Positions 4,094 to 13,539 of a stretch of DNA of 23,210 nucleotides are shown piece after piece (the first letter of the stretch is position 1; every line of letters starts with the position of its first letter). Under the pieces are notes generated by a model. It was not told the DNA's origin, searched no databases, and saw only the letters and a list, made by a program, of their open reading frames with translations. The position numbers and the translations under genes were made by a program. Origin of the DNA: a virus; the IMG/VR virus record IMGVR_UViG_3300025418_000488, positions 1 through 23,210 of that record; one strand, given 5' to 3'.

Positions 4094-5539
4094 CTACTGA
4101 GCGTATGGATTGGCAAAACGCTTGCGGGGGTCTTCATCCGCATAATCGTAATCTCTGGCTGGTAATGGGTCTAATTGCAGCCAGCCATCGTCTCTGAGGA
4201 TACGCAGGGCCTGTGAAAGCGAGTCTACGTAGTCATCATGCCCGCCGGCTTCTGGGAACGAACAGACTTGGCGCAAGAAGCGTTTAGCCCAATCTGCGTA
4301 TTCACCAGGTTTTTTAGGATCTTCTGGAATAAACACTTTTCCTTTAGCTATCAATGGCGAAACAATGTTTAACCGTTGTATTTTGTCTGCACGACCAGGA
4401 TTGTAACCTTGAACTGGCACACCTGCACCTCGAAGTTCTTGAATTAACGAAATACCCGCTGATTTGTCTTCCATCAAAATAAGATCAGACTTTTTACCTT
4501 TGGCAAAATCGTTATCTGCACCATATACGACTTCTTTAAAATCATTTACCACCTTGCGACGTAACTCCGGATAGGATAGATGCTCATCCCACGCGTCTAA
4601 TAACATCGCGCACACGCCGCCATCCAGTTGCTCAAAGATTCCCCAGACTGTGCAAGCTGTTGGGTCGTTGTGTGTCTTTTCGCTGGTTGCTGGATCGTAT
4701 GACGCCAACACATATTCCAATTCTGGCGTGGGTTTATCGGCTGGCCACATTCTAAAATGCCTGCGCTTGATAATGCCGGAAGATTCTGGGTCAAGAATCT
4801 CACCGTAGATCTCCTGACGACCAATGTCGGTGCCGTCGTATGTCTCTAGCTGTTTGAAAAATGTTTCGGAGAGGTTCTCCCGATTGTCGTACGATGACGC
4901 GTTGACCATGTAGACGTCGCCACCAACTTTACCTTCGGCGAGGTCGACAATGAGCTCGCGTGGCTTGGGGGTGGTGGTGATAATTTGCTGAACACGAGGG
5001 ATTCTTGGGTCTTTAAGACGCAAAGTAAACTGTACGCCATCGTAGGCGTCGTCAAGATAGTCGAAGGCGCACAACTCGTCGAACCAAGCTCCGTGATATT
5101 GCTTACCACGATATCGTTCTGGTTCAGATGCTGGAATGCCTTGAATGATTGATCCGTTGATGAGGGTAATTTCAAAGAGGGACTTGTTGTAATCTCGTAT
5201 AAGGCTCGCGGGTATGATATTGAGAAGACCGGAGTCTCCTTCGAAGCAAGTTGCACGGATATCATTAGAGGTTGGGGCGGTGACAAGCCAGCGAGTGCCG
5301 GGGTAACGCCAAGCGCGTATGCCAATCCAATGGCTGGCAGTGTGCGTCTTACCAGATCCGCGGCCGGCAAGCATAAGGAACGTATCATATTCTCCATCGT
5401 CAGGTTCTTTTTGGTGTGCTAGTGCTTGTTTGGCCCAAGTGATGCGCCAAATTGCTGCATCAAGCTCAGGTTTAGGCCAGTGCTTACGCTCTGCCGCAAA
5501 CTTAGTCAGTTCTTGTTGTTGTTCTTTTGTTAAAGGCAT
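4094..5539 (-). CDS. terL: Terminase large subunit (ATPase and nuclease)
   Basis: This 481-aa packaging motor subunit pumps DNA into the procapsid and cuts it. Walker A is AGRGSGKT at 58-65, and Walker B is WFDE at 152-155 within HGAWFDEL. The RNase H-like nuclease begins with the acidic SYDP motif near 280, and GGHDDYVDSL at about 432-441 supplies late acidic residues. The length is usual for the family. The ATG at 5539 sits inside the last codons of the upstream Hint-like gene (10-base overlap). Unusually, its partner TerS lies about 16 kb away on the other strand. Confidence 0.93.
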   Translation of the reverse strand: MPLTKEQQQELTKFAAERKHWPKPELDAAIWRITWAKQALAHQKEPDDGEYDTFLMLAGRGSGKTHTASHWIGIRAWRYPGTRWLVTAPTSNDIRATCFEGDSGLLNIIPASLIRDYNKSLFEITLINGSIIQGIPASEPERYRGKQYHGAWFDELCAFDYLDDAYDGVQFTLRLKDPRIPRVQQIITTTPKPRELIVDLAEGKVGGDVYMVNASSYDNRENLSETFFKQLETYDGTDIGRQEIYGEILDPESSGIIKRRHFRMWPADKPTPELEYVLASYDPATSEKTHNDPTACTVWGIFEQLDGGVCAMLLDAWDEHLSYPELRRKVVNDFKEVVYGADNDFAKGKKSDLILMEDKSAGISLIQELRGAGVPVQGYNPGRADKIQRLNIVSPLIAKGKVFIPEDPKKPGEYADWAKRFLRQVCSFPEAGGHDDYVDSLSQALRILRDDGWLQLDPLPARDYDYADEDPRKRFANPYAQ

Positions 5540-6522
5540 GCAATAAATCCTTCTTCCACCAGCATGCTGTTATCTTCGCCATCTAGTTCGATGTGAACAC
5601 AGGCTTGTGGGGTGATTGGTTCAATTTTAGACAGCATTCTCCAGTTTTGCCGAACTTTAATTGGCTTGGGGGTTTGCTCGTCCATTAATTTTAATTTAGT
5701 TTTGATGTGAACAGTATACCCGATAACAGAGTCAGGCCCTTCCAGTACTGTTTTGCAACCTAAGCTCTCGGCAAGATACTGAACTTGCTTTACCGTAGGA
5801 AAATGTTGCGATGTAAACCGAAACGTATCAGACTTTTTATTATAACGTCTGGGTTTTGAGTGCATGATGCCACTAAGCAGCTCAATTCTTTGCTCTGGGC
5901 TGGATAATAGGTAGTTGTTTGGAATTTGATACGGGATGTGCGGCGCTAAATGCGACAAGATTGTGGGCTTTGTGTTGTACACCCGCATTTTTTTGATTGG
6001 ATCGCGCCAAGATGTCAGCTGATAGCCGTGTTCTTTTAGCTTTTCGGTAATCAAGTCCATGTAAACGCTAGGAATTTTTATAGTTCCGTCACGGCGCCGA
6101 GTAAAAAACCAGAACCCAAACAAAAATGGTGGTACTGGCAGGTCTTTGTATGGCAATTCTAAGGGGGCTGTTGTAGGTACGCTGAACTTTAGCCGGTTGT
6201 TTTTGTTAACCAGGGGTTCGGCAGTCAGTTCGCTTATTGCTTTTGGTAATAATGGGCGACGAAATTTCTGCACGCCTTTATATGTGACAATTCTATTGCG
6301 GTACTTTGGGGTTTCTATGGGGAATTTAAGGTCCTTATCACCAGCAACCGATGTTCCGTCTAGGAAGGTTGCCCGAAAGCAAGGACGCTTGTCCAGAATT
6401 TGAACGAGTTTGACCCGGACCTTTTTGCCCAGTCTGTTAAATACAATGTCACCCGGTTTAATATCCTGCGCTATTTTCCAATAGTCAAGGGTTAACACTT
6501 TTTGTGTCGATGTGATTGCCAT
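5530..6522 (-). CDS. Degenerate stand-alone Hint/LAGLIDADG (intein-like) protein
   Basis: This 330-aa protein has the order of an intein with a DOD homing endonuclease but lacks the splicing residues. The N-terminus (VLTLDYWKIAQDIKPGDIVF, 9-28) resembles intein block A, yet it starts with Met and has no Cys/Ser1. Residues 53-67 look like block B with the usual T..H lost. Two LAGLIDADG-like helices are at 132-147 (FLFGFWFF) and 211-223 (QRIELLSGIM), and in both the catalytic acidic residue seems missing. The last 24 residues (about 307-330) match blocks F/G, ending in FIACL where His-Asn would be expected. The gene overlaps the TerL start. I infer a decayed or repurposed intein; other roles are possible. 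Confidence 0.7.
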   Translation of the reverse strand: MAITSTQKVLTLDYWKIAQDIKPGDIVFNRLGKKVRVKLVQILDKRPCFRATFLDGTSVAGDKDLKFPIETPKYRNRIVTYKGVQKFRRPLLPKAISELTAEPLVNKNNRLKFSVPTTAPLELPYKDLPVPPFLFGFWFFTRRRDGTIKIPSVYMDLITEKLKEHGYQLTSWRDPIKKMRVYNTKPTILSHLAPHIPYQIPNNYLLSSPEQRIELLSGIMHSKPRRYNKKSDTFRFTSQHFPTVKQVQYLAESLGCKTVLEGPDSVIGYTVHIKTKLKLMDEQTPKPIKVRQNWRMLSKIEPITPQACVHIELDGEDNSMLVEEGFIACL

Positions 6523-6881: not shown

Positions 6882-7081
6882 ATCCACAGTATCCATAGTA
6901 TCCAGGGTATAAACGCAACTTACCCTATATCTCTTTTTATCTTTTTTAAAAAAAATAAAAAAAAGTAAAACAAGGGTGGATACTGTGGATCGTAAGTACA
7001 AAAGCCTTTTTAATCAACGGGTTACCGTGCCACCCTTCGCTAAAAAGGGTGGATTATAATCCAGGATGCAGTGCAACATTT
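6882..7081. repeat. Repeat copy A: nested inverted repeat plus hairpin block
   Basis: ATCCACAGTATCCA (6882-6895) and its exact reverse complement TGGATACTGTGGAT (6977-6990) bracket a T-tract/A-tract centre. Next comes a hairpin, CCACCCTT with AAGGGTGG, at about 7031-7052, and then a 14-base palindrome TGGATTATAATCCA. The same arrangement recurs at 13306-13500. It lies between the leftward and rightward arms. Operator, origin or promoter function is possible but not shown. Confidence 0.8.
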
Positions 7082-7129
7082 TCTTTATACAAAAATTTTT
7101 AAAAAAATTCGCAAACTTGAAGTCTGACA

Positions 7130-7530
7130 TGGGGCCACCGCCCCGGCCCCCCGGGTACCTGTTTAGGGGTGTCGACATTAGCAAAAAGGGACCCTGCCAC
7201 CGAAAAGGAGGGCCATTCCACATTATGAGATGCCATGCCACATTGCGGGGCCAGCACCCTAACACTCACCCACACTGACTGCTAGTAATGGGGACAGAGT
7301 GGCGGGCCCCACTAAGTTAGTGCTCACTAACATAGGCCAGCGCGCCAGTGTGCCAGTGTGGGGTAGAGCTGGGCCCCAGCCAGTGTGCCAGTGTGGCAGG
7401 GTGGGCGCGTGGCAGGGTGGGCCCCAGTGCATCACCAGCGTGGCAGTGTGGTGGCGTGGCACCGTACGCGCACGCGATGTGCAGGGGTGGGGGTGTACTT
7501 CGTAGTGGCGCAATTGCAGGACACAGGGCA
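7130..7530. repeat. GC-rich non-coding mosaic of short repeats
   Basis: A strongly GC-rich tract in a window of otherwise moderate GC. GCCAGTGTGCCAGTGTGG occurs at 7344-7361 and 7379-7396. GGCAGGGTGGG occurs twice, 16 bases apart, near 7395-7421. GGGCCCCA occurs three times between 7309 and 7425. Open frames here on both strands are low-complexity, have no ribosome sites and match no family I know, so I treat the tract as non-coding. The plus strand is G-rich. Confidence 0.7.
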
Positions 7531-7580
7531 TCCCAGCGCATAATTCAATAGGACGCGATTAGAGGGGCCTACGAGACGCG

Positions 7581-7978
7581 ATCGTATTGTGCTGGTACCT
7601 CAGCATCACCTACCCAACGATCTCTAGTAATCCAGTAACCACGAGGGTTAGCGGTCCGTCCCAGCTCATCCGATGGGCCACAACCCAGCCAAATACTTTG
7701 TCATTTTAGAGGGTAGTTTTTTTGTCGAAAGTTCTGTACATTTTGCATAGGCTTTGCGAAACTATCATTGTTGTCTTGATCGTAGTACAGAGTTTGCGGG
7801 ATGCAAACGATACGCAGATCGGCAACGACGGCACGGCGCCACGATACGGCGCCCGAGGTGACTAAGTACCAGCCTCGTTAAACGTGTGGCAGACCTCACG
7901 GCAGGACACGTGAGCGAAGATGTACCAGCGGGGTAGGATGTCCCAACAGTTGGCAGATAGTAATGCTCAGAGCGCATT
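7581..7978 (+). other. Hairpin-dense non-coding stretch, candidate structured RNA
   Basis: No credible gene. Perfect short helices follow one another: TGCTG/CAGCA (7590-7605), GTTTGC/GCAAAC (7792-7808), GGCGCC/GGCGCC (7835-7853), CGAGG/CCTCG (7854-7877), CTCACG/CGTGAG (7895-7914), CCAA/TTGG (7943-7953) and AATGC/GCATT (7962-7978). A longer-range pairing of CTACC...CTCTA (7610-7626) with TAGAGGGTAG (7707-7716) is followed by seven T residues and could act as a terminator. It may be a long leader or a separate non-coding RNA upstream of the early genes. The class is unknown. Confidence 0.45.
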
Positions 7979-8039
7979 GATTATGAGGCAGTGCGCTCGA
8001 GGCAGTACCTATCAACCACCACCACACAGGAGAATTACC

Positions 8040-8291
8040 ATGACAAAATTCACAATCATTAAATTGATCGATGAGAATAAAGTTGTACCAGCAAGACTAT
8101 TGCCTGAGCAGTCAGGTGATTGCCTTGAGTGGACAGTAGATGACCAAAACATCCTGCAGTACAACCCCAAGACTAAACAGTTCAGTTTTGAAGAGTATGA
8201 CTTTCAGAACGATGACTGGGAGCTAGTCAACACGCTGGGCCACGATGTAGCCTACAAAATTGCGTTAAATGAAGGCATCATCTACGAGTAA
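8040..8291 (+). CDS. 83-aa early protein, unknown
   Basis: First gene of the rightward early region. An AGGAGA site at 8028-8033 sits 6 bases before the ATG at 8040, which rules out a longer frame that begins in the non-coding leader. The 83-aa acidic protein has no motif I recognise. Its stop codon (8289-8291) lies inside the outer helix of the first hammerhead ribozyme, so its mRNA end is defined by self-cleavage 28 bases after the stop. Confidence 0.75.
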   Translation: MTKFTIIKLIDENKVVPARLLPEQSGDCLEWTVDDQNILQYNPKTKQFSFEEYDFQNDDWELVNTLGHDVAYKIALNEGIIYE

Positions 8292-8357
8292 TACAGATCG
8301 AAACCGCGTGACCGCGGTCTACACGTTATGCGTGTACTGATGAGATCAACCATTACT
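8287..8357 (+). ncRNA. Type II hammerhead ribozyme, copy 1
   Basis: All core elements are present in type II (open stem II) order. Stem II is GATC 8296-8299 with GATC 8344-8347, and GAAA is 8300-8303. Stem III is ACCGC 8303-8307 with GCGGT 8314-8318, and the cleavage-site C is 8319. Stem I is TACAC 8320-8324 with GTGTA 8332-8336, and CTGATGA is 8337-8343. Beyond an ACA/AACC internal loop, stem II is extended by six exact pairs (AGTAAT 8287-8292 with ATTACT 8352-8357). Predicted cleavage is between 8319 and 8320, in the intergenic space between two small genes. The Shine-Dalgarno site AGGAGG follows immediately at 8358-8363. The core bases and pairings are read directly; activity is inferred from the family. 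Confidence 0.92.
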
Positions 8358-8367
8358 AGGAGGACTT

Positions 8368-8589
8368 ATGATCACCACTGGCAAGACCCAGTATGACGTG
8401 GCCCTGAGCTGGAGTGCTTACGAGCACCTCGGCAATAAGGGCAGGCTGGCATTAAAGCGTGAGCACAACTTCAAGGAGCGCACGTTCAAGACCCGCGAAG
8501 AGGCTGAGCAGTTTGCAAAGGCCGAACGCGAGCGGACTGGACTTGAGCTTAGAGTAGGGGAGTGCACACCGCTCTACGGCATTCTGTAA
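8368..8589 (+). CDS. 73-aa early protein, unknown
   Basis: The ATG at 8368 follows AGGAGG (8358-8363) at good spacing. The 73-aa product is basic in the middle, with FKTREEAEQFAKAERERTG at about 40-58, a pattern often seen in small phage proteins where a helix follows a beta strand; no function is assigned. The gene lies exactly between two hammerhead ribozymes, so after self-cleavage it would sit alone on an RNA of about 296 bases (8320-8615) with a hairpin at each end. Confidence 0.75.
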   Translation: MITTGKTQYDVALSWSAYEHLGNKGRLALKREHNFKERTFKTREEAEQFAKAERERTGLELRVGECTPLYGIL

Positions 8590-8591
8590 CA

Positions 8592-8643
8592 GATCGAAAC
8601 CGCAGGACTGCGGTCTGCACGTTATGCGTGTACTGATGAGATC
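8592..8643 (+). ncRNA. Type II hammerhead ribozyme, copy 2
   Basis: The design matches copy 1. Stem II is GATC 8592-8595 with GATC 8640-8643, and GAAA is 8596-8599. Stem III is ACCGCA 8599-8604 with TGCGGT 8609-8614 (loop GGAC), and the cleavage-site C is 8615. Stem I is TGCAC 8616-8620 with GTGTA 8628-8632, and CTGATGA is 8633-8639. Relative to copy 1, stem III is one pair longer with a changed loop, and one stem I pair becomes G-U, so sequence changes keep the pairing. The stem I loop GTTATGC and the ACA/AACC stem II bulge are identical, as expected for tertiary contacts. The outer stem II helix is absent here. Confidence 0.92.
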
Positions 8644-8667
8644 AACCACCACCAAAGGAGCTATACC

Positions 8668-8868
8668 ATGATGACAGCAGAGCAAATGATGACCGAATCA
8701 GAGGCCATCCAGCGCCGTATTATCAACGGCGAAGTACCCCGGGGTAGTATCCCTGATCAAATAGCACGGGCCCAAAGCCTAAACCTGCAGGCCATTGCGT
8801 TATGGCGCGCTGAGGACCGCGCGACTGAGCGTGCATTGTTAATCAACGAACTGGAGCACAATAAATGA
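8668..8868 (+). CDS. 66-aa early protein, unknown
   Basis: The ATG at 8668 follows AAAGGAG (8654-8660), 53 bases after the predicted cleavage point of ribozyme copy 2. The 66-aa product is predicted all-helical and charged, with no recognised motif. Its stop overlaps the next gene's ATG (8865), indicating translational coupling. Confidence 0.7.
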   Translation: MMTAEQMMTESEAIQRRIINGEVPRGSIPDQIARAQSLNLQAIALWRAEDRATERALLINELEHNK

Positions 8869-9113
8869 ACCAAGAATACAAAATCACCCAAATCGGCAGA
8901 ATCGAGCACGGCATCGACGGCTCAGACCAGTTCTTTCAGGTTGAGTGCGACGAGCCCATCGAGAAGGACGCGTTGTGGGAGAAGTTCAGCGACGAGTTTT
9001 ACTACGAGACCCAGCAGGAGGCTGGCGGGTACTACTGCAAGCGCTTTGAGATCTTTTTAAGTGACTACGAGTACCGCGCCGTCGTCAAAGTAGAGCATCG
9101 CTATGACGTGTAG
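8865..9113 (+). CDS. 82-aa acidic early protein, unknown
   Basis: An 82-aa acidic protein rich in Tyr, Phe and Glu (about 25 acidic residues), starting at the ATGA overlap with the previous gene. There is no membrane segment and no recognised domain. The acidity and the early-operon setting would suit a DNA-mimic or host-inhibitor role, but nothing in the sequence proves this. Confidence 0.7.
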   Translation: MNQEYKITQIGRIEHGIDGSDQFFQVECDEPIEKDALWEKFSDEFYYETQQEAGGYYCKRFEIFLSDYEYRAVVKVEHRYDV

Positions 9114-9126
9114 TATTTTTTCAACA

Positions 9127-9143
9127 AGCTCACTTTATGAGCT
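9127..9143 (+). other. Intergenic hairpin
   Basis: A perfect six-pair stem, AGCTCA (9127-9132) with TGAGCT (9138-9143) and loop CTTTA, lies in the 75-base gap between two early genes. No T-tract follows it, so it is not a classical terminator. It may mark an RNA processing site. It does not contain hammerhead core bases. Confidence 0.4.
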
Positions 9144-9188
9144 AGTACCGCTTTATACTAATCACTCTTATCCACCAAGGAGCTAATT

Positions 9189-11799: not shown

Positions 11800-12362
11800 T
11801 GAATGATTTCTTAACTGATTATCTTAAGTCTTTATACGGCATACCAGTACTAGATTCTGAGGAAGAGTACGCGCTGGCTAAGCGCATACAAAAGGGAGAC
11901 GAGGAGGCGCTGGACAAGCTGGTGCTACACAACCTGCGCTTTGTGGTCTACACGGTGCGCAAGCTCACGGCGTGGAACCACTCACGTACACCGCAGGAAG
12001 ACCTGATTGGCATGGGCAATGCGGCACTACTTAAAGCAGCTCGTCAGTGGGTGCCAAGTAACAACGCCAAGTTTGCGACCTACGCCAAGCGGTTTATTCT
12101 GCGCGGTGTAGAGCGCGGGCAGGATGACACCGAGAACCTAGTACGTATACCAATCAAAGTACGTGAAGAGATTCGCAAGATGACGTACACTGAGCGTGCG
12201 CTGACTCAAACACTGGGGCGTGATCCAACGACCCAAGAGTTAGCAACTGTGCTGGGTAAGTCGACTCGGCGCATTAACCAATTAAAGTTTTATATGTTGC
12301 AAGAACCATCCTCATTAGACTCACTTAGCATAGACAAAATGGAAGACGATCAAGATGATTGA
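11799..12362 (+). CDS. Phage RNA polymerase sigma factor lacking region 4
   Basis: A 187-aa sigma-70-type factor. Region 1.2-like YLKSLYGIPVLDSEEEYALA is at 8-27, followed by region 2 with NLRFVVYTVRKL (45-56), QEDLIGMGNAALLKAARQW (66-84) and KFATYAKRFILRGVERG (91-107). A region 3-like part spans about 117-165, and the protein ends in an acidic tail at 187. Region 4, which binds the -35 box and the polymerase flap, is absent, as in T4 gp55. Such a factor would read mainly a -10-type element, which matches the TATTAGTA promoters found outside this early region. The ATG overlaps the preceding stop (TAATG). Specificity is inferred, not shown. Confidence 0.82.
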   Translation: MNDFLTDYLKSLYGIPVLDSEEEYALAKRIQKGDEEALDKLVLHNLRFVVYTVRKLTAWNHSRTPQEDLIGMGNAALLKAARQWVPSNNAKFATYAKRFILRGVERGQDDTENLVRIPIKVREEIRKMTYTERALTQTLGRDPTTQELATVLGKSTRRINQLKFYMLQEPSSLDSLSIDKMEDDQDD

Positions 12363-13305: not shown

Positions 13306-13500
13306 GATCCACAGTATCCATAGAAGTTTTTACTTTTTACTCCAGTTTTATATTTTTTATTTTTTTTAAAATAAATAAAATAAGTGAAACAAGGGTGGAT
13401 ACTGTGGATCCTGATACAAATAGTCTTAATAATCAACCAGTTATCGTGCCACCCTTTGCCATAAAGGGTGGATTATAATCCAGGATGCAGTGCAGCATTT
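13306..13500. repeat. Repeat copy B: nested inverted repeat plus hairpin block
   Basis: GATCCACAGTATCCA (13306-13320) and TGGATACTGTGGATC (13396-13410) form a 15-base perfect inverted repeat around an AT-rich centre. Then come a CCACCCTTT/AAAGGGTGG hairpin (about 13450-13471), the palindrome TGGATTATAATCCA and AGGATGCAGTGCA, as in copy A 6.4 kb to the left. A further inverted piece, AAAGGGTGGCACGGTAAC, lies at 13259-13276. The rest of the 13145-13555 gap shows no confident gene. Confidence 0.8.
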
Positions 13501-13539
13501 TTCCATATTTCATAATGTGAAACGAATTTAAGAATATTT

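Follow-up and report, generated by a model that had tools for sequence, protein, structure and literature searches.

Compact type II hammerhead ribozymes in tandem around a small early phage gene, their apparent exchange with promoters and a linked structured leader RNA

Introduction

Self-cleaving RNAs between phage genes are not a new observation. Perreault et al. (2011; PMC3088659) report type II hammerhead ribozymes in clusters that flank individual phage genes, describe clustered copies as active both in vitro and in E. coli, and propose that hammerheads cut phage transcripts into gene-length mRNAs; a pseudoknot between loop I and the 3' tail is stated there for the majority, not all, of type II hammerheads. 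A 2017 review describes hammerheads at the flanks of small, functionally uncharacterized ORFs and treats their role in phages as open (PMC6155905). One hammerhead, from Burkholderia phage Bcep176, is active in vitro but slow, at under 0.1 per minute.

We analyzed a virus record of 23,210 bases, hereafter the window, in which two type II hammerheads enclose a gene for a 73-aa protein. A preliminary description of this DNA had presented both the tandem gene-isolating pair and the RNA-processing scheme built on it as novel. This was overstated: both were published in 2011 (PMC3088659), and the ribozyme arrangement itself is already described. What is added here is a layout rule relative to genes, an exchange with promoters, a compact subtype missed by Rfam, and a linked leader RNA. 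A layout of one ribozyme per gene, together with the leader, helps in asking what phage hammerheads are for.

Results

The early operon

Portal and terminase genes occupy the minus strand of the window, and a run of small genes begins on the plus strand at 8040, followed by genes for a sigma-like factor, primase, helicase and endonuclease VII. This confirms the early-gene context proposed in the preliminary description. The features of this strand, in window coordinates, are:

8040..8291, plus strand: first gene of the early run (83 aa), preceding ribozyme A, with homologues in L164 and L167
8296..8347, plus strand: hammerhead ribozyme A, type II (Rfam, leave-out model R2, fold)
8320..8615, plus strand: predicted 296-nt RNA freed by two cuts, containing the 73-aa gene only (from the predicted cleavage sites)
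8368..8589, plus strand: 73-aa gene (MITTGKTQYDV...), SD AGGAGG at 8358-8363
8592..8643, plus strand: hammerhead ribozyme B, type II (layout of A, +296; Rfam, leave-out model R2, fold)
8668..8868, plus strand: gene of 66 aa that follows ribozyme B, SD AAGGAG at 8655-8660
11682, plus strand: sigma-like factor (phrog_351), early operon
13573, plus strand: primase, early operon
17855, plus strand: helicase, early operon
21803, plus strand: endonuclease VII, early operon

Only three intergenic gaps exceed 20 nt in the early operon up to 12681, and two of these are the hammerheads. The remaining long gap (9114-9188) holds a small hairpin, AGCUCA-CUUUA-UGAGCU, and no hammerhead. The stop codon of the 83-aa gene lies 4 nt 5' of stem II of ribozyme A, and the 66-aa gene, overlapped by an 82-aa gene (8865-9113), has homologues at 80-91% in L147, L149, L169 and L171.

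Elsewhere in the window, a 131-nt noncoding sequence occurs at 6953-7082 and 13373-13501 (87% identical), upstream of the primase gene, and is also present in relatives. Two adjacent minus-strand ORFs (4094-5539 and 5530-6522) each have matches among terminase large subunit families, and in Caulobacter phage RW, too, two genes are annotated as large terminase. At 7162-7101 on the minus strand, Rfam gave the CPEB3 (HDV-like) ribozyme below threshold (E 0.006); we rejected this match, which lacks room for P2/P3, enters a T tract and is probably a product of chance or a terminator. When the entire window was compared with named phages by Megablast, nothing matched, and the named phages closest to it in terminase (Caudoviricetes sp. 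MW202545 and Caulobacter phage RW) are without a hammerhead of the window's type. Host searches returned nothing for the leader pattern (described below) in bacterial genomes, and the primase, used as a host probe, matched solely a distant metagenome-assembled contig.

Anatomy of the two ribozymes

In copy A, stem II is formed by GAUC 8296-8299 with GAUC 8344-8347; between its strands lie GAA (8300-8302), stem III (8303-8318), C17 (8319), stem I (8320-8336) and CUGAUGA (8337-8343). The core elements GAAA (8300-8303), U16.1-H17 (8318-8319) and CUGANGA (8337-8343) are all present, and each recurs 296 positions further on in copy B, whose C17 is 8615. Fold and alignment agree on loop-closed stems I and III and an open stem II, which is the type II topology, and each copy folds as drawn when excised as 60 nt. 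The type II identity claimed in the preliminary description is thus borne out by core, topology, covariation and relatives, and our predicted cleavage sites, after 8319 and 8615, fall at the positions it had given. Its motif start at 8287 needs correcting to 8296, 8287 being within the upstream gene.

Over 60 nt the copies, 296 nt apart, are 93% identical, with four base differences: two in a single stem III pair, one in stem I and one in a loop. At the innermost pair of stem III, G-C is replaced by A-U, which is truly compensatory, and in the loop UGAC gives way to GGAC; the stem I change from A-U to G-U had been correctly noted. The view that the differences preserve pairing holds for these pair changes and fails for the additional stem III pair, as both copies have six pairs, counting A15.1-U16.1, which rules out a gain from five to six. 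A and B are a duplication of one ribozyme; they are ruled out as mutual independent proof, and independent evidence has to come from relatives.

Detection

The Rfam Hammerhead_II model, the scan suggested earlier for checking the motif, matched both copies, with 27.9 bits for A (E 1.5e-5) and 25.4 bits for B (E 6.5e-5; E-values for the whole record), but neither reached the gathering score of RF02276, 37 bits. R2, a leave-out model whose training set of 18 phage hammerheads contained none from the family of this phage, gave 65.9 bits for A (E 1.7e-17) and 63.1 bits for B (E 1.1e-16), with no further match in the window at E<=1. In 1.1 Mb of fetched loci, mostly brought in by a core pattern, a strict structural descriptor matched 160 times; dinucleotide-shuffled versions of this DNA yielded no match.

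At its gathering score, Rfam recognized no family in ten loci with about 30 related hammerheads, and the experimentally active Bcep176 hammerhead has no Rfam hammerhead match at E<=10. The threshold is therefore uninformative for the compact subtype defined below: a large group of hammerheads is missed at the current setting and is largely invisible to routine annotation. On the combined sequence and comparative evidence, we regard both elements in the window as genuine ribozymes, and both are very likely active.

A compact type II subtype

Searching viral contigs with the core pattern, which carries no pairing rule, returned at least 120 stretches; a near-exact search of viral contigs for the window's own ribozyme returned none. 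By adding relatives of the primase, the 73-aa gene and the leader to the core-pattern matches, we gathered at least 196 distinct hammerheads in at least 127 viral loci, a set that retains near relatives and does not represent 196 independent events.

Their shape is highly uniform: stem I spans 17 nt (6 bp and a 5-nt loop) in 189 of 196, and stem II has 4 bp in 191 of 196. The stem I loop of this compact subtype begins with U. All 41 hammerheads of the leader-linked sample, which was not selected for hammerheads, share the compact shape. An extra U between A9 and stem II (CUGAUGA-U-GACC) occurs in 28 of the 196 and in 16 of the 41 leader-linked ones; it was seen in L140, L143, L147, L022, L042 and others. 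Descriptors for types I and III, run over all loci, produced only a type III in L143, a type I in L025 and one doubtful match. The densest array noted, at L078 3039-6240, has eight type II hammerheads in 3.2 kb, often one gene apart.

Double changes affect 13 of 16 pairs and are spread over all three helices, and 100% of alignment cells are paired, against 67% in shuffles and 22-43% when the alignment is slid. The rows used for covariation had passed a pairing descriptor; the counter-check is that, among the core-pattern matches listed, chosen without a pairing rule, 94 of 102 distinct ones fold strictly, most of the others looking like near misses. Stem III has a GC content of 79% even in AT-rich phages, compared with 49% for stem I, and its tetraloops are GNRA or UNCG in 81 of 131 cases.

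Placement relative to genes

The typical slot begins about 2 nt 3' of a stop codon and ends about 21 nt 5' of the next start codon. Of 193 hammerheads, 169 are followed on their own strand by an SD and start codon no more than 60 nt away (opposite strand, 11 of 195), the distance from cut to start codon being 42-60 nt (5-95%). On the other side, 170 of 193 have a stop codon between -4 and +10 nt ahead of them, as opposed to 131 of 1,930 random places (6.8%). All the hammerheads of a locus share one strand; no locus has them on both.

Exactly one gene, with a median length of 73 aa, fills 45 of the 70 segments between consecutive hammerheads. The setting apart of a single gene by two ribozymes, described earlier for the window, is thus a recurrent layout, and the window pair forms a cluster in the sense of two or more hammerheads on one strand around single genes. 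A single hammerhead is all that is present on 91 of 146 hammerhead-bearing locus-strands (many of them contig fragments), so that isolation of a gene from both sides is not required.

Hammerheads and promoters around the same gene

The 73-aa protein belongs to no Pfam family and weakly matches phrog_3627 (E 0.004). It has a predicted alpha/beta fold (mean pLDDT 83), with which a fold search returned no match at E<=0.001. Homologues with 73-88% identity were found on 10 viral contigs, where the surrounding genes are syntenic. The gene has hammerheads on both sides in L140 and L143, and one directly after its stop codon, as in the window, in L147 and L149. The other six (L141, L142, L144, L145, L146 and L148) have no hammerhead, including when whole records are searched with model R1; these carry three to six exact TTGACA-N-TATAAT sigma-70 promoters among their small early genes. 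No exact-consensus promoter is found in the homologous early region of the window, L140 or L143, and 135 of the first 149 loci fetched lacked the promoter sequence.

Hammerhead and promoter thus look like alternative devices by which a small early gene acquires its own 5' end. The switches are few: the promoter-bearing relatives represent few lineages, namely five closely related contigs and L148, and downstream promoters also occur in some hammerhead phages (L149, L150). The same small early gene, with hammerheads in some phages and promoters in others, constitutes a natural comparison.

A structured early leader

Upstream of the first early gene lies a conserved RNA with two nested features:

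7851..8018, plus strand: wider structured early leader, formed by the leader element and three more covarying hairpins (covariation, 8 sequences)
7955..8013, plus strand: leader element (LE), imperfect hairpin AGAUAGUAAUGCUCAGAGC...GCUCGAGGCAGUAC, directly 5' of the first early gene's SD

The wider leader has 39 consensus pairs, 11 of them with double changes among the 8 sequences, and LE is the last of its four hairpins, with five pairs showing double changes. Loops of the leader hairpins are invariant, such as UGACUAAGUACCAG. Rfam 15 gave no match over 7500-8060 at E<=1, so the analysis exposes a conserved leader RNA that no Rfam family describes. Structured leaders were also seen at L149 4215-4377, L172 7843-8003 and elsewhere, with modules that are interchangeable in relatives.

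The exact LE pattern occurs in 31 viral contigs. In 28 of these, hammerheads follow on the same strand, and of the three without, two break off soon after LE. A dozen relatives have a consensus promoter that precedes LE by 123-222 nt, mostly by 162-166 nt; the window has no such promoter there.

The least expected part of the finding is that the last hairpin of this leader seems to trade places with hammerheads. In L166, which carries two LEs (7656, 7887), the second lies across the gene 1 stop codon and ahead of the gene 2 SD, which is the hammerhead slot. Conversely, in L143 the leader slot (4501-4559) is taken by a type III hammerhead, matched by Rfam Hammerhead_3 at 33.7 bits, below the cut-off, with E 9.5e-6 over that stretch and no match in shuffles. 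These substitutions suggest that LE might be a processing element or an undescribed ribozyme; the leader may also have a structural or antitermination role.

Discussion

Proposed division of the early transcript

The best-supported reading, to which we give a probability of about 0.7, is that the hammerheads cut a long early transcript into short mRNAs, each new end of which carries a hairpin. Cleavage, the protection of ends and an effect on expression are what we infer from the sequence, covariation, position and recurrence of the ribozymes and their swap with promoters. The long transcript would start ahead of the structured leader; during transcription stem III would form first, then stem I and then stem II, and the RNA would cut itself after each C17 (8319 and 8615), dividing the transcript into separate mRNAs.

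Hammerhead chemistry leaves a 3' end consisting of stem III and one base with a cyclic phosphate, and a 5'-OH end that begins with stem I. The upstream piece would accordingly carry at its 3' end the GC-rich stem III hairpin, a one-nucleotide tail and a 2',3'-cyclic phosphate, and the downstream piece would present a 5'-OH on a stem I hairpin without an unpaired base, with its start codon about 50 nt on. Both new ends should withstand the usual exonucleases and 5'-end-dependent decay, and because of this each small early gene would have a short protected message with a fixed 5' leader, making its own promoter or terminator unnecessary. Stem III loops have no catalytic task, and the GC-rich stems with GNRA or UNCG tetraloops fit a protective 3' hairpin; as an alternative to end protection, the stable tetraloops may be an aid to folding. 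The precedent for cleavage comes from the Bcep176 hammerhead, whose stem I is near-identical and which cleaves slowly in vitro, and from clusters elsewhere that are active in vitro and in E. coli. The fixed succession of stop codon, ribozyme and RBS makes the idea of a ribozyme as mRNA divider directly testable.

A broader and more tentative possibility is that hammerheads and LE are interchangeable parts of an RNA-punctuated early operon, LE being itself a site of RNA processing, whether as a previously unrecognized self-cleaving ribozyme or as the target of a host nuclease, and that both replace individual promoters in this phage family. It is prompted by the second LE of L166, the type III hammerhead of L143 and the hammerheads in 28 of 31 LE contigs.

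Alternative explanations

The ribozymes might act as 5'-leader devices only, trimming upstream RNA to leave the downstream gene a fixed hairpin leader, with release of the upstream RNA a mere by-product. The fixed cut-to-start distance, the frequency of single hammerheads and the equivalent place of LE before the first gene's SD all agree with this, and in E. coli, hammerheads of the RiboJ type are reported to make 5' leaders uniform and to increase the stability of mRNA (PMC7536230). We nonetheless find it unlikely, as placement is equally tight relative to the upstream stop codon and the unusually stable stem III hairpin points to a role at the upstream 3' end as well. Less probable again is that a hammerhead with its RBS marks the border of exchangeable small-gene cassettes, where repeats aid recombination and cleavage is incidental. 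Such an origin would account for the gene content between borders, which varies strongly among relatives, and for the greater likeness of hammerheads within than between phages (57% versus 43% for stem III, 66% versus 47% for stem I); this likeness is modest, recent duplicates excepted, and the strong covariation with an intact core indicates selection on the RNA fold, beyond homology.

There is little to recommend a regulated switch, in which cleavage would respond to a ligand, to temperature, to Mg2+ or to whether the upstream gene is being translated. A ribosome terminating at a stop codon about 2 nt before stem II would be expected to overlap the 5' strand of the ribozyme, but tight packing is common in compact phage genomes anyway, no extra aptamer-like domain is present, and stem II has just 4 bp almost throughout (191/196). 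Finally, the sub-threshold Rfam scores could be taken as a sign of inactive remnants or a chance motif, which we consider scarcely credible given that the Bcep176 example deprives that threshold of meaning for this subtype. The E-values of 1e-17 and 1e-16 obtained with a model from other phages, the compensatory change between A and B and the core kept in 196 distinct relatives rule out a chance motif. Division of the early transcript thus remains our preferred reading.

Comparison with known systems

According to the 2011 report (PMC3088659) and RF02276, previously described type II hammerheads share with the window copies the GAAA/UH/CUGANGA core, closed stems I and III, an open stem II and intergenic locations in phages, and the report also has clusters around single genes and the transcript-cutting proposal. 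The window subtype differs from these in its 6-bp stem I, 5-nt loop starting with U and 4-bp stem II; its copies score below the cut-off, and the extra U after A9 is found in 28 of its 196 relatives. Compared with the 2011 consensus (PMC3088659), the window copies have by inspection no evident loop I-3' tail pseudoknot of at least 4 bp, the most that could form being GUU/AAC (3 bp).

The Bcep176 hammerhead (NC_007497, about 12168-12240) has the same stem I as copy B (UGCACG-UUAUG-CGUGUA) and a GGUC/GAUC stem II, and scores 49.7 bits with model R1. It differs by its long stem III, its single copy, the opposite strand of the next annotated gene, and an A6C core change, to which its slow cleavage is due. 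The tandem ardA hammerheads of Agrobacterium tumefaciens (Perreault et al. 2011) likewise flank a small phage-type gene and are active in vitro and in E. coli; they comprise three ribozymes and other genes, and the available text of that paper reports no structured leader there.

Two systems outside this class offer functional parallels. RNase III processing of T7 early mRNA also cuts a polycistronic early transcript between genes into short mRNAs (PMC4858673), through a host protein enzyme acting at double-stranded sites, whereas the cuts proposed here would be made by RNA alone. The synthetic insulator RiboJ, like the ribozymes of the window, places a hammerhead upstream of an RBS to fix the 5' leader (PMC7536230), but it is engineered, belongs to a different kind of hammerhead and follows a promoter rather than a stop codon.
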